From positions 3,328,001-3,392,000 of the forward strand of contig NZ_CP152003.1 in NCBI RefSeq assembly GCF_038595065.1: a DNA stretch of 64,000 bases, given 5' to 3'. A program made the translations under genes and the position numbers. Position 1 is the first letter of the stretch, and the number at the start of each line of letters is the position of its first letter. The stretch is from Sutcliffiella sp. FSL R7-0096. GTDB lineage: Bacteria > Bacillota > Bacilli > Bacillales > Bacillaceae_I. This document shows, piece by piece, positions 22,103 to 63,420 of the stretch. The notes under the pieces are model-generated. The model was not told where the DNA came from and searched no databases. It saw only the letters and a list, made by a program, of their open reading frames with translations.

Positions 22103-22293
22103 GCAAGTCCCAATCGTGCCGTCGTCGATGCCTTCGTTTTGATCCCCGCTCACAGCAGGTGGGTGCTCTGTTTCATGCATGTAGTAAGTCCTCACGAGGA
22201 AGGCTTTTACGCAGCGACGAAAACTCTGAGCTCCCGTATAATCTATTGTTCGGTCAAAACAATAGGTTATACGACGAACACATCAGGACTTGC
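22103..22293 (-). ncRNA. bsrA: 6S RNA (6S-1 / bsrA type)
   Basis: The minus strand from 22293 starts GCAAGTCCTGATGTGTTCG and ends with ATTGGGACTTGCC near 22103, giving the closing stem GCAAGTCC/GGGACTTGC. The span is ~190 nt, the size of B. subtilis 6S-1 RNA. A GC-rich 3' half carries GCCTTCCTCGTGAGGACTTA, a block I recall from Bacillus 6S-1. Its site between tcdA (yrvM) and aspS is where B. subtilis bsrA lies. 6S RNA mimics an open promoter and holds sigma-A RNA polymerase. The primary transcript may start ~8 nt earlier and be processed. Confidence 0.88.
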
Positions 22294-25533: not shown

Positions 25534-25862
25534 AAAAAACTCCCGTCCCTTGTTTATTTTCTAAACAAGGGACGGGAGTTATATATCCCGTGGTGCCACC
25601 CTAATTGAAGTTTGAAGGCATTTCAAATATCTTTTGTGCCTTCGGTTACTTCCACTCAAGCAGTTAACGCCTGCAACGTCCATCTCCTAGTAAAGCAATT
25701 TGTGCTGTCTGCAGCAAGTTAAAACAACCATGCAACTGACTGGCAATGCTTTTTCAGAGCGGATCCTACGGAGTGTTCATTCATTGAGTCATCAAGGGGA
25801 AATGCTTTCAGCCCAGGGCATTTCTTCTCTTTCCATGTGGTTCCCAACTACTGTTCTCCATC
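25534..25862 (-). promoter_or_regulatory. T-box riboswitch, His specifier, controlling hisS-aspS
   Basis: The minus strand has the conserved T-box AGGGTGGCACCACGGG (25587-25602). It is followed by a 19-bp terminator stem (25538-25580) ending in a T run. Stem I begins about 25859 with GGAGAACAGTA, and its specifier side reads GAACACTCC (25770-25778). Within the AGTA/GAA loop-E arrangement the specifier codon is CAC (25773-25775), histidine. Uncharged tRNA-His would stabilise the antiterminator and raise expression of both synthetases. No GAC (Asp) specifier is seen. Confidence 0.92.
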
Positions 25863-25871
25863 ATCGGTATC

Positions 25872-26065
25872 ATATATTTTGGCTATTTCGTAAATTTTGT
25901 TGCTATTTCGTATTTAGTAACGCCTCGTAATACTTAGTACTGTCGTGCTCTTTTCCTTACCATGCAAGCAATGAGGCACTCCATATTTAGTATAAAAAGC
26001 GGTAAAAAGTCCAAAAGCCGACTTTTTACTAGGTAATTACAACAATCTCTGTGAAAAGAGCCTAC
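25872..26065 (+). repeat. Nested-palindrome element, copy A
   Basis: This ~190 bp element has a left block with two TATTTCGTA repeats around TTTTGTTGC. A middle block ACTGTCGTGCTCTTTTCC starts at 25939. A stem follows (GTAAAAAGTCC ... GACTTTTTAC, 26001-26030), then TACAACAATC, and it ends GAAAAGAGCCTAC. It is related to copies at 31840-32021 and 61405-61590. It lies directly upstream of the hisS T-box leader and is read antisense to it. Confidence 0.85.
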
Positions 26066-26110
26066 ATTTTAGTCCATTAACGCGACTGTTTGTTATGTAA
26101 GATACTTGCT

Positions 26111-31380: not shown

Positions 31381-31424
31381 ATTTCTACTCACCTTTTTGA
31401 CTTCTTTTTTTATTTGGCTCTGTT

Positions 31425-31550
31425 TAACACCGCCGTTGATTTCCGCAACGGGCTTCGCTTGCCGCGGGGCGCTTGCGGAGCCTCCCCTAAGCACTACCTC
31501 CCGAGGGAGTCTACGCCCTCTGCTTCAATCAACAGCTATAAAACTCGTTG
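31425..31550. repeat. Dispersed repeat, copy 5
   Basis: CGCCGTTGATTTCCGCAACG on the left and TTCAATCAACAGC on the right mark the ends; the right end continues CTATAAAACTCGTTGA as in copy 1 (CTATAAAACTCTTTGA). It lies just upstream of relA and has produced a false N-terminal extension in that reading frame. Confidence 0.8.
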
Positions 31551-31839
31551 AGCATCTTTAACAGAGTGATTTATCAAAAAAACTATTAAAAAACGCATGC
31601 GCTATGGTAGTCTTGTTAATTTTATCATTATGGTCAAGATTCTTTCGTTCTTTACTTGGATATAACAAATAAGTATATTGTTTTTATTATCGTGAAATTT
31701 TATGTAGATGTAAAGAGATTATGAGGGAAAAATAAAGATTTGTCGACAGATTTTTCAGGAATTAGTGTAAAAAAAATACTTTTCTAAAAAAAGAAGCCTT
31801 TTCACCTATTATTTCATCATATTGATTATACCAAAAGAA

Positions 31840-32021
31840 GGTTTTCGTAAACTTTGTTGTTTTTCGTACTATTGAATCAACCGTTATATTCATTACTGTC
31901 GTGCTCTTTTCCCTGTGGTACTGAAAATCACTACCTGCATATTATCGGTAAGTAGGCAGTAAAAATTCCATTTGCCGACTTTTTACTGGTAATAGCAACA
32001 ATCCTTGAGAAAAGAGCCTAC
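31840..32021 (+). repeat. Nested-palindrome element, copy B
   Basis: The left block TTTTCGTAAACTTTGTTG is followed by ACTGTCGTGCTCTTTTCC (31895). A stem formed by GTAAAAATTCC and GACTTTTTAC comes next, then AATAGCAACAATCC and the terminal GAAAAGAGCCTAC. It is in the same orientation as copy A and fills much of the apt-relA spacer. Between the end of apt and relA (31381-32105) I see only this element and dispersed repeat copy 5. Confidence 0.85.
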
Positions 32022-32062
32022 CAAAAAATAGTACTGGGTATTTTTCATCCATATATACAAAA

Positions 32063-32105: not shown

Positions 32106-32618
32106 TTAGTACTTCATCAATGTGAGGATATCAAATCCGTCCAACTTGTCACGGCCATCCAGGTAGGATAACTCAATGAGGAAGGCGATTCCTGCAACCA
32201 CTCCTCCAAGCTCTTCTACAAGCTTGATTGTCGCTTCAATCGTTCCGCCTGTCGCAAGAAGGTCGTCCGTGATCAATACACGTTGTCCTGGTTTGATTGC
32301 ATCCTTATGGATGGTCAGTACATCTTTCCCGTACTCCAATCCGTATTCCACACGTGCTACTTCACGTGGAAGTTTTCCTTCTTTACGAACCGGCGCAAAA
32401 CCAACTCCAAGAGAATACGCAACCGGACAACCGATGATAAATCCACGTGCTTCCGGTCCAACAATTAAATCTACTTCTTTATCACGAGCATATTCAACGA
32501 TTTGGTCTGTTGCATAACGGTATGCATCGCCATTATCCATCAACGTTGTTATATCCTTGAACTGAATTCCAGGTTTTGGCCAATCAGGAACGATTGTTAC
32601 GAATTTCTTTAAATCCAT
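32106..32618 (-). CDS. apt: Adenine phosphoribosyltransferase
   Basis: A 170-residue purine salvage enzyme turning adenine and PRPP into AMP. The PRPP loop [13 protein letters not shown] is near residues 114-126 and [20 protein letters not shown] carries the adenine-binding region. It lies 14 bp behind recJ. The terminator after it separates it from relA here. Confidence 0.96.
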
Positions 32619-60061: not shown

Positions 60062-61345
60062 CTATTCTACAAATTCAAATTCGTATTTCTGAAGACGCAC
60101 GATGTCGCCGTCTTTGGCACCTCGTGCACGCAATGCTTCATCGACACCCATTCCGCGAAGCTGGCGGGCAAAACGCTTGATAGACTCTTCATGGTTGAAG
60201 TTTGTCATCACAAACAGTTTCTCCAGCTTTTCGCCAGAAAGTACGTAAGCACCGTCAGGATCCCTTGTGATTCTGAAGTCTGCTTCCTCTTTCTCATGCT
60301 TGTAGACCACGCGTTGCTCAATCGCTTCTTCTTCATAAAGCGGGTACTCCGGTGCATGCTCAAGCTCGTCCGCCACCGCGTACAATAGGTCGCGAAGACC
60401 GCTGCGGGTAAGAGCAGAGATAGGGAATACCTTCACTTCATCGCCCACCTGTTGCTTGAATATTTCAAGGTTTTCCTCTGCATCCGGCATGTCCATTTTG
60501 TTGGCAACGACAATTTGTGCACGCTCTGTGAGACGCAGATTATATTCTTTCAGCTCTTCATTGATTGTTTTGTAATCCTCATATGGATCACGGCCTTCTA
60601 GCCCGCCCATATCCACTACATGGATGATGACACGAGTACGCTCGATATGACGTAGGAATTGATGTCCAAGACCTACACCTTCATGCGCACCTTGAATCAG
60701 ACCTGGTAAATCGGCCATGACAAAGCTGCGGCCGTCTTCGGTCTCCACTACCCCAAGATTTGGTACGATAGTGGTGAAGTGGTATTCGGCAATTTTCGGT
60801 TTTGCTGCAGATACAACCGATAAAAGGGTAGACTTCCCTACACTTGGGAAACCCACAAGTCCAACATCGGCAAGCACTTTCAATTCAAGTACGACATAGC
60901 GCTCCTGGCCTGGTTCCCCGTTTTCGGCTACTTCCGGAGCAGGATTTCTAGGTGTAGCAAAGCGCGTGTTTCCGCGACCTCCACGTCCACCCTTCGCAAC
61001 TACATACTGTTGTCCGTGTTCTGTTAAGTCAGCTAATGTTTCCTTTGTATCATCGTCCATGACTACAGTTCCAGGTGGAACCTTTACAATCATAGCTTCC
61101 GAGTTTCTGCCATGCTGGTTCTTGGACATTCCGTGCTCTCCACGGTTTGCTTTAAAGTGACGCTTGTAACGGAAATCCATTAACGTACGTAGCCCTTCTT
61201 CTACTTGAAGGATGACGTCCGCACCTTTACCACCGTCACCGCCAGCTGGTCCACCATCCGGCACATATTTTTCACGACGGAAGGCTACCATTCCGTTCCC
61301 ACCGTCGCCACCTTTTACATAAATCTTGACCTGATCGACAAACAT
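60062..61345 (-). CDS. obg: GTPase ObgE/CgtA (Obg)
   Basis: A 427-residue ribosome-associated GTPase. The N-terminal Obg fold (glycine-rich [20 protein letters not shown]) spans 1-158. The G domain has [28 protein letters not shown] and NKMD, and the C-terminal OCT domain has the family fold. Obg links ribosome assembly, (p)ppGpp and, in B. subtilis, Spo0A phosphorelay activity. It follows spo0B with nested element copy C between them. Confidence 0.96.
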
Positions 61346-61404
61346 TGATTATTCACTCCGATATGTCAAAAGGTAAAAGAACACCTTTTGCGTTCATTTT
61401 TTAA

Positions 61405-61590
61405 AGCTCTTTTCTTAAAAATTGTTGCTATTCACGAGTAAAAAGTCGGCAATTGGACTTTTTACTGATTACATTACCTAAAAATCGCAATTAGTCTGCA
61501 TTCTAAAACAGGGAAAAGAGCACGTCAGTAAGTAATATAAGACTAATTATTTATTTACGAAACAGCAACAAAGTTTACGAAAATCGGCTT
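61405..61590 (-). repeat. Nested-palindrome element, copy C
   Basis: Read on the minus strand it starts ATTTTCGTAAACTTTGTTGC, then TACTGACGTGCTCTTTTCCC, the stem GTAAAAAGTCC ... GACTTTTTAC (61438-61466), AATAGCAACAATTTTT and ends GAAAAGAGCT. It is inverted relative to copies A and B. It fills the spo0B-obg gap, starting right at the spo0B stop codon, so it would be transcribed between two genes of one operon. Confidence 0.88.
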
Positions 61591-61591
61591 T

Positions 61592-62125
61592 TTAAAGCTT
61601 ATAAGACACCTGGATGGTACTTTGCTCAGATGTTATCGCCTGTTCATGCACTGTAAATCCATCCGGCTGTGTTTGCAGCCACTCCGTTAAAAAGTCTGTA
61701 TCTTCTAGTATTCCATTTATATCAAAAAAGAAACGAATTTCTTCTGCCTCTTCTATATTCAAACTTAAAAACAAATGGTTATCTGCTTTTTTGTTCACCG
61801 CATTTTCTAGGTCGGTAAACAAAGAAGAAATCCATTTGTATAATACCCCATCCGCTTTTGACAAGTTCACCGGCTCCCCGATGACCTCGTATTCCATCGC
61901 AAACAATCTCGGCTCCCAATGGAAGGTAATCAGATATTCTGCAAATGCAGGGGCGTGTAAATTCGTCAAATTGGATTCATGATTAGCCTCAAGCACAATC
62001 TCATCTATCAAATTATTCACTCGCTCCAAACGCCCCAAAGACAAATTCGCTTTAATCAACTGAATCCGATTAAGCCAATCATGCCTCGAATGACGCAACA
62101 CATCCAACGTCCCTCTATTTATCAT
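61592..62125 (-). CDS. spo0B: Sporulation initiation phosphotransferase B (Spo0B)
   Basis: A 177-residue phosphorelay protein that moves phosphate from Spo0F to Spo0A. The phosphoacceptor helix LRHSRHDWLNRIQLI is at 10-24 (phospho-His 15), followed by LSLGRLERVNNLIDEIVLEA and the histidine-kinase-like C-terminal domain. It lacks ~15 N-terminal residues of B. subtilis Spo0B. The start ATG follows a CTAGGAG site. As in B. subtilis it is followed by obg. Confidence 0.92.
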   Translation of the reverse strand: MINRGTLDVLRHSRHDWLNRIQLIKANLSLGRLERVNNLIDEIVLEANHESNLTNLHAPAFAEYLITFHWEPRLFAMEYEVIGEPVNLSKADGVLYKWISSLFTDLENAVNKKADNHLFLSLNIEEAEEIRFFFDINGILEDTDFLTEWLQTQPDGFTVHEQAITSEQSTIQVSYKL

Positions 62126-63308: not shown

Positions 63309-63420
63309 TCTTGCACCTCCTCAATAGACTCAGACTCGCCAGTATCAGGTATATGTAACGAATTCACGCCCATATTTCACGGAACCTGGACTGTGCGGTT
63401 GTAGCACGGGTGCTACAAAC
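63309..63420 (-). promoter_or_regulatory. L21 leader region of the rplU-prp-rpmA operon
   Basis: The ~110 base 5' untranslated region before rplU has a hairpin TTGTAGCAC, GG, GTGCTACAA (63399-63418) and a conserved-looking stretch with ATACCTGATACTGGCGAGTC. Firmicutes carry an L21-binding autoregulatory leader here (Rfam L21 leader). The match is by position and general shape. Confidence 0.7.

Follow-up and report, generated by a model that had tools for sequence, protein, structure and literature searches.

Short mobile repeats comparable to those studied here have been described in both archaea and bacteria. By its entry in Table 4 of PMC3852290, the MITE of ISHwa6 (IS1595 family) from Haloquadratum walsbyi is 165 bp long, has 25-bp inverted repeats (IR) and an 8-bp direct repeat (DR), and is present in 7 copies. 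ISApl4, which belongs to the IS1016 subgroup of the IS1595 family, is an autonomous IS of 712 bp with 14-bp ends (GGGGCTGTACTAGA), and the available part of its description gives A+T-rich duplications of 8 bp for ISApl4 and of 7-9 bp for IS1016 elements (PMC12561309). In the B. cereus group, the repeats bcr1-bcr18 are linked to a TTTAT motif and a site-specific mechanism has been suggested for them, according to the accessible text of PMC6542083. A 2024 review of prokaryotic MITEs does not use the terms IS1595 or Bacillus in the portion available (PMC10969869). Our literature search recognised no paper on the Bacillales MITE family presented here, and Rfam has no match to it; the earlier note's remark that the element is apparently undescribed can therefore stand for the family, though not for the class, since IS1595-associated MITEs are in print (PMC3852290, in the part seen). 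As far as the searches show, the family is new and ordinary in kind, and its new part is a covarying hairpin found only in the MITEs.

Likened to the ISHwa6 MITE by its published description, the present family is likewise IS1595-associated and has similar IR and DR lengths, whereas the former is known from an archaeon with 7 copies in one genome and the latter belongs to Bacillales, where a single genome has at least 166 matches, the ends are spread across the order, and a hairpin and an end-tip motif in the interior are shared between lineages (PMC3852290, Table 4 entry). With ISApl4, so far as the available description goes, it has A+T-rich 8-bp duplications, a link to a DDE transposase and many copies in common; ISApl4, however, is autonomous and 712 bp long, while the present MITEs measure 182-183 bp and overlap no ORF of 80 aa or more (PMC12561309). 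The bcr1-bcr18 repeats are also short multi-copy Bacillus repeats with features of mobile elements, but are set apart by the TTTAT motif and the B. cereus group as host in what is available of their description (PMC6542083).

The window, a stretch of 64,000 nucleotides from Sutcliffiella sp. FSL R7-0096, contains three copies (A, B and C), whose limits were set from the terminal repeats and target duplications. Their neighbours are called hisS, relA, apt, spo0B and obg presumptively, by inspection of the ORFs and their surroundings. The features are as follows.

25565-25873, minus strand: hisS T-box, on one side of copy A
25873-25880: left target duplication of copy A, TATATTTT
25881-26062, plus strand: MITE copy A, 182 bp
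25947-25955, plus strand: internal motif of copy A, GCTCTTTTC, a copy of the terminal-repeat tip
26002-26029, plus strand: internal hairpin of copy A, GTAAAAAGTCCAAAAGCCGACTTTTTAC
26063-26070: right target duplication of copy A, TACATTTT, 7/8 against the left
26140-26111, minus strand: promoter-like site, on the other side of copy A
31829-31836 and 32019-32026: left and right target duplication of copy B, TACCAAAA, 8/8
31837-32018, plus strand: MITE copy B, 182 bp
31903-31911, plus strand: internal motif of copy B, GCTCTTTTC
31959-31986, plus strand: internal hairpin of copy B, GTAAAAATTCCATTTGCCGACTTTTTAC, with one mismatch and loop CATTTGCC
32106-32618, minus strand: apt-like gene beside copy B, the other neighbour being a relA-like gene (minus strand)
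60062-61345, minus strand: obg-like gene beside copy C
61589-61596 and 61398-61405: target duplication of copy C, TTTAAAAA in minus reading, 8/8
61406-61588, minus strand: MITE copy C, 183 bp
61438-61465, minus strand: internal hairpin of copy C, GTAAAAAGTCCAATTGCCGACTTTTTAC
61513-61521, minus strand: internal motif of copy C, GCTCTTTTC
61592-62125, minus strand: spo0B-like gene beside copy C, with its stop codon in the target duplication 61589-61596

That three copies share ordered blocks, as the earlier note had it, was evident by reading and by alignment, with a few substitutions between copies. Its coordinates led to the right loci but were off by up to 9 bases, and the blocks that it quoted are shared in order, although some vary by copy (AATTACAACAATC in A, GTAAAAATTCC in B). 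A search of the window with a MITE model at E<=1e-10 returned A, B and C as sole matches, and no ORF of 80 aa or more in the ORF list of the window overlaps any of them. Their terminal inverted repeats are imperfect and about 25-28 bp long, and alignment of 32 copies showed that the element has sharp ends, left GGCTnTTTTCGTAAACTTTGTTGCT and right AATAGCAACAATCTTTGAGAAAAGAGCC, which are imperfect inverted repeats of each other. In B and C the left end has drifted at its outermost few bases (GAAGG, GCCGA), and in copy A an end base was lost, such that the duplication is shifted by one base. Among 59 distinct rows, conservation was high at both ends, in CTGTCGTGCTCTTTTCC and in the hairpin GTAAAAAGTC-CAATTGCC-GACTTTTTAC; the linkers were less conserved. 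The proposal of nested hairpins with GCTCTTTTCC and GAAAAGAGC outermost had to be dropped, given that the blocks follow one another in the order TTGTTGCTATT - GCTCTTTTCC - hairpin - AATAGCAACAA - GAAAAGAGC and both of the named pairings consequently cross. The outer partner of GAAAAGAGCC is instead the terminal GGCTnTTTTC, which was absent from the original block list. When this was included, element L025 and copy C folded with a long terminal stem around the hairpin (z of -5.2 and -4.9), and a z of about -5 is what is expected of an inverted-repeat element. In the crossed pairing of the right end with the internal GCTCTTTTC, which the earlier note had named, 98.7% of cells pair; the eight outermost pairs of the terminal repeats reach 89.7%, but the figure for the crossed pairing says little as its columns hardly vary.

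The case for a repeated element had been made to depend on further copies in the genome, and these were found in number. A model search of the host genome (one contig of 4,908,118 bases) gave at least 166 MITE matches at E<=0.01, a lower bound in that 150 of 2524 candidates were scored, using a sequence-only model built from 28 copies. With copy C as query the same genome yielded at least 72 matches (40 of 193 candidates scored), among which 41 were nearly complete, and the terminal 25-mer with up to 3 mismatches matched 256 times (137 + 119) compared to 2 (1 + 1) for a backward-pattern control. Given these 166 or more genome matches and the excess of terminal 25-mers over the control, the copies are not due to chance. 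Identity to the nearest copy had a median of 89% and reached 95% or more in 12 of 46 distinct own-genome rows, a few of which are partial, and copies at unrelated loci are up to 99.5% identical; amplification would thus appear, from the nearest-copy identities, to have been spread in time and partly recent. One element (L019) lies inside the right end of another copy as a nested insertion with the duplication ttgagaaa. By a rough ORF rule, no ORF of 80 aa or more contains any of the 43 own-genome copies examined; 26 of these are situated between co-directional, 11 between divergent and 6 between convergent ORFs. The plasmid and phage collections, from which records near the host genome were possibly left out, gave no MITE match at E 1e-5.

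The flanks of the copies were then compared. The results showed that 8-bp A+T-rich target duplications are present at 7/8 or better in 28 of 32 own-genome copies (16 at 8/8; that of copy A shifted by one base) and fall below 7/8 in the other 4, as compared to 39 of 992 pairs that combine the left flank of one copy with the right flank of another. The targets have a preference for T at the first position and A at the last four, and the A+T-rich duplication of about 8 bp that is to be expected of an IS1595-associated MITE is thus found at the own-genome copies. In addition, the orthologous sites were aligned in ten near congeners (G001, G002, G003, G004, G007, G008, G009, G012, G013 and G014), and A, B and C were absent from all ten. 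For A and C, all ten clearly show a single target. The site of copy B lies in a diverged neighbourhood, and its target is plain only in the closest congener, G013 (CTACCTAAAAA for TACCAAAA). Alignments of the orthologous sites of the window copies with more distant congeners are poor.

Some related elements were observed in the same genus. The spo0B-obg gap of G011 holds a related MITE (L279) near the position of copy C, apparently an independent insertion, and close to the orthologous site of copy B in G013 there is a shortened relative of about 75-90 bp (L245) with both ends degraded and TATATA-type flanks. In G010, three MITE matches follow one another in tandem at a spacing of 9 bp (G010:C1:1887138-1887696).

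Ends of the same kind were found on larger elements that code for a transposase. In one genome, two ends 1.6 kb apart with identical 8-bp flanks enclose an IS1595-type transposase (in two open pieces) and a DUF5680 gene. A family search detected PF12762 in 23 of 101 genomes of the order (19 above the cut-off), the host genome not among them. Open transposase frames are present in L116 of Bacillus sp. PS06 (2009 bp, duplication TAATATAA, with an alpha/beta-hydrolase gene in addition) and in L102 of G103 (1449 bp, duplication AAAAGTTT). A scan of the named genome collection gave at least 292 relatives, the best 80 of which were taken as transposon loci; in 49 of these 80, MITE-type ends (up to 4 mismatches each) with a duplication of 7/8 or better flank the transposase (43 at 8/8), compared to 0 of 80 in a reversed-sequence control. 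Within the best 80, such ends accompany 47 of 66 loci where the transposase is at least 50% identical to that of L116, and 2 of 14 below 50%. One of these two, L227, really has the other end type, GGCTATGTT...TTGA, which occurs in 9 of the 14 loci below 50% identity. MITE-type ends were found at four loci on plasmids of Niallia sp. Man26 (twice), Priestia flexa and Cytobacillus solani, with duplications of 8, 8, 7 and 8 of 8, respectively. Three of the transposon proteins scored 196-214 bits on the NF033547 IS1595 model (cut-off 75) and pass PF12762. The Bacillales IS1595 transposons (L116/L185 of PS06, L102 of G103, L203/L204 of S. halmapala, L160 and L161 of Man26) thus have the same or near-same ends and, as the MITEs, 8-bp A+T-rich duplications; unlike the MITEs, they are about 1.3-2.3 kb long and encode a transposase and, in some cases, a further gene.

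Together, the inverted repeats, the 8-bp duplications, the empty sites, the unrelated loci, the nested insertion and the transposons with the same ends strongly support the mobilisable MITE that the earlier note had suggested; target duplications (28/32 at 7/8 or better) and empty sites (10/10 congeners) were the check proposed for it. Judged by sequence comparison, the repeats are almost certainly MITEs with IS1595-type ends that would be moved in trans by an IS1595 transposase. From the shared ends we infer this trans-mobilisation, and the ends make the IS1595 family the likely mobiliser. An IS1595 transposase provided at the time by some other source in the cell would bind the ends of about 25 bp (GGCTnTTTTCnnAAAnnTTGTTGC) and move the element. 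Insertion would be into A+T-rich DNA, mostly between genes, with an 8-bp stagger of the cuts, and repair of these cuts would leave the 8-bp duplication. The inner hairpin and the internal copy of the end tip might assist in this, for instance by offering an accessory site to the transposase or to a host factor.

The further genes of Bacillales IS1595 transposons are varied, with alpha/beta hydrolase, DUF5680 and DinB-family genes seen in L116, L091 and L160.

Two other origins were considered and rejected. The MITE does not qualify as an internal-deletion derivative of a resident IS1595 element, since no autonomous partner was found in the host genome and the interior motif occurs in 0 of 55 IS1595 transposons, none of which thus has the interior of the MITE. 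An ISL3 origin was considered at first on account of the end sequence and the length of the duplication; ISL3 duplications are about 8 bp. We consider it barely credible that the repeats belong to the bcr type of B. cereus, or are MITEs of another IS family such as ISL3. The similar size, the Bacillaceae hosts and the A+T-rich targets would agree with either, and in favour of ISL3 there is the DR of 7 of the lone ISL3 MITE in Table 4 of PMC3852290, but no ISL3 transposase (PF01610) was found in the genome, and these ends are found on elements coding for IS1595 transposases. The bcr repeats, judged by the features published in the available part of PMC6542083, have a mobility tied to the TTTAT motif and, for the first element, to the B. 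cereus group.

We looked at how far the IS1595-type ends reach beyond the genus. The exact 24-base end was present in 99 of 299 genomes of the order and in 41 of 116 genera; the control columns gave 0. Elements outside the genus have the same ends and duplications around varied interiors and range from 82 to 673 bp (looser ends, duplication of 6/8 or better); these loci were drawn from about 80 exact-end places, and 82 elements were obtained from 123 loci after those lacking a recognisable pair were dropped. Seven elements (L050, L075, L078, L084, L085, L088 and L089) combine IS1595 ends with a G+C-rich interior module (GTTGATT../..GAAATCAAC type) that resembles the interior of a second repeat of the window (31412-31576, minus strand), and interiors may, on this sequence resemblance, have been swapped between IS1595 end types. 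This second repeat lies just upstream of the relA-like start, is absent there in congeners including G013 and G002, and, with 40 of 175 candidates scored, has at least 58 genome matches. As its end GGCTCTGTTTAACACC is similar to the other type of IS1595 end (GGCTMTGTTAAA..TTGA), the repeat may represent a MITE that belongs to a second subgroup of IS1595.

We then asked whether the interior parts of the MITEs are peculiar to them. Among 121 distinct MITEs, a hairpin whose loop is of the CAANNNCC type is present in 62, the internal motif GCTCTTTTC/GAAAAGAGC in 63, and both in 55. The corresponding numbers in 55 IS1595 transposons (92 kb) were 1, 0 and 0, the single hairpin match being unrelated sequence, and in 20 mononucleotide shuffles of the interiors they were 0.2, 0.15 and 0.0 per set; as the loop pattern was drawn after the hairpins had been seen, the 55/121 is descriptive and it is the transposon and shuffle controls that are informative. 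Outside the genus, the hairpin occurs in 24 of the 62 MITEs, from five genomes of three other genera (G044/G145, G043/G219, G201). The stem letters change with pairing kept at six positions, which outward from the loop read TA/CG, GC/TA/AT, AT/TA, AT/TA/GC, TA/GC/CG and GC/TA, the outer three being less sure in register than the inner three because some stems have 9 bp and some 10 bp; in an alignment of hairpin and end, stems of these two lengths did not fall into register. Hairpin and motif also occur in a different order in different lineages. We read the hairpin as conserved and MITE-specific on the strength of these comparisons, and it probably acts at the DNA level.

Within the genus the evidence for pairing was mixed. 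Double changes affect three of ten hairpin pairs. With ends and hairpin taken together, 6 pairs and 10 cells were double-changed, which none of 500 column shuffles reached, but a +2-column slide of the partners gave 6 pairs and 12 cells, i.e., not below the true pairing. Internal motif and hairpin together gave 4 pairs and 8 cells against at most 3 and 5 in slides. RNAalifold predicted no pairs in a 76-row alignment that included partial rows. Selection on structure, as the earlier note had suggested, is accordingly upheld for the inner hairpin, mainly between genera, while within-genus covariation is weak and mixed and RNAalifold gave nothing in its favour.

The same data bear on the possibility that we are dealing mainly with a structured RNA that is conserved, a cis-regulator or small RNA that came to be repeated by happenstance. 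The inner hairpin keeps its pairing while its sequence changes between lineages, the folding z is about -5, double changes exceed all 500 column shuffles, and A, B and C lie between co-directional ORFs and may be transcribed. Yet strand is mixed relative to co-directional neighbours (17 same, 9 opposite, n=26), the +2 slide does as well as the true pairing, RNAalifold found no structure, and target duplications and empty sites show DNA insertion. Rfam also speaks against it: a search of the whole window with Rfam 15 at the gathering threshold had no match at A, B or C, and at a relaxed threshold there was none over the element around A and there were three hits far under gathering scores at copy C. 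We thus hold an RNA of this kind to be very unlikely.

Elsewhere in the window, Rfam placed a 6S RNA at 22103-22292 and a ribosomal protein L21 leader at 63322-63410 (minus strand). The hisS T-box leader scored 92.4 bits, just under the gathering score of 93, and was for this reason missed by the default search. Copy A separates the promoter-like site (TTGACA-18-TATACT, 11/12) from this T-box and puts a terminator-like hairpin between the two on the hisS strand; the promoter- and terminator-like sites are consensus matches and not evidence of function.

If the ends are of IS1595 type, hairpin and internal motif could still be passive hitch-hikers handed down from a founding MITE and without any role, a serious possibility that falls somewhat short of an even chance. 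Of the 121 MITEs with these ends, 59 lack the hairpin and yet all had been chosen for their flanking duplications, which indicates that the hairpin is dispensable for insertion; copies within one genome are related by descent, and covariation within the genus is weak. Passive carriage sits less well with the six stem positions at which letters changed and pairing was kept across lineages, with hairpin and motif being about as conserved as the ends while the linkers drift, and with an order of the two that differs between lineages. A role for both parts is the alternative, and we put forward, tentatively and with some doubt, that the MITEs are an independent, order-wide parasite lineage of IS1595 transposons with conserved cis parts of their own and not merely shrunken transposons. 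Those parts would be a hairpin of 9-11 bp near one end, typically with an 8-nt CAANNNCC-type loop, and the internal end tip GCTCTTTTC, kept in four sampled host lineages by compensatory change, re-orderable, and absent from the autonomous elements examined.

Finally, we determined where a transposase for the MITEs is present in the genus today. None of the IS1595 family was found in the host genome, either by the PF12762 family search or by a search for L116-like proteins at E 1e-5. In 16 genomes of the genus, an intact L116-like transposase occurs only in S. halmapala DSM 8723 (G015), in two copies, whose transposons (L203/L204) have exact 8-bp duplications and ends (GCCTGTTTTC...; GCCTG...TTGTGG) that differ somewhat from those of the MITEs. 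Fragments only were seen in G004, G010, G011 and G012, and 11 of the 16, the host's included, had no match at E 1e-5. Terminal-repeat counts per genus genome (up to 3 mismatches, both strands) ranged from 3 in G004, near background, to 271 in G010, with 256 in the host and 0-2 in controls. MITE copy number thus does not follow the presence of a resident transposase, and we infer that the family, its present copies included, is either stranded or reliant on imports from time to time.

In summary, an abundant repeat that is spread across the order Bacillales is tied to a transposase family through shared ends, and among its insertion sites are leaders and operon gaps that belong to core genes, namely hisS, relA/apt and spo0B/obg. 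Should the hairpin prove to be a signal peculiar to the MITEs, it would provide a way to test how elements that are not autonomous can out-copy their transposons. Were the MITEs indeed a parasite lineage with cis parts of their own, they could out-compete the host transposon for its transposase or exploit a folded single strand at some step.
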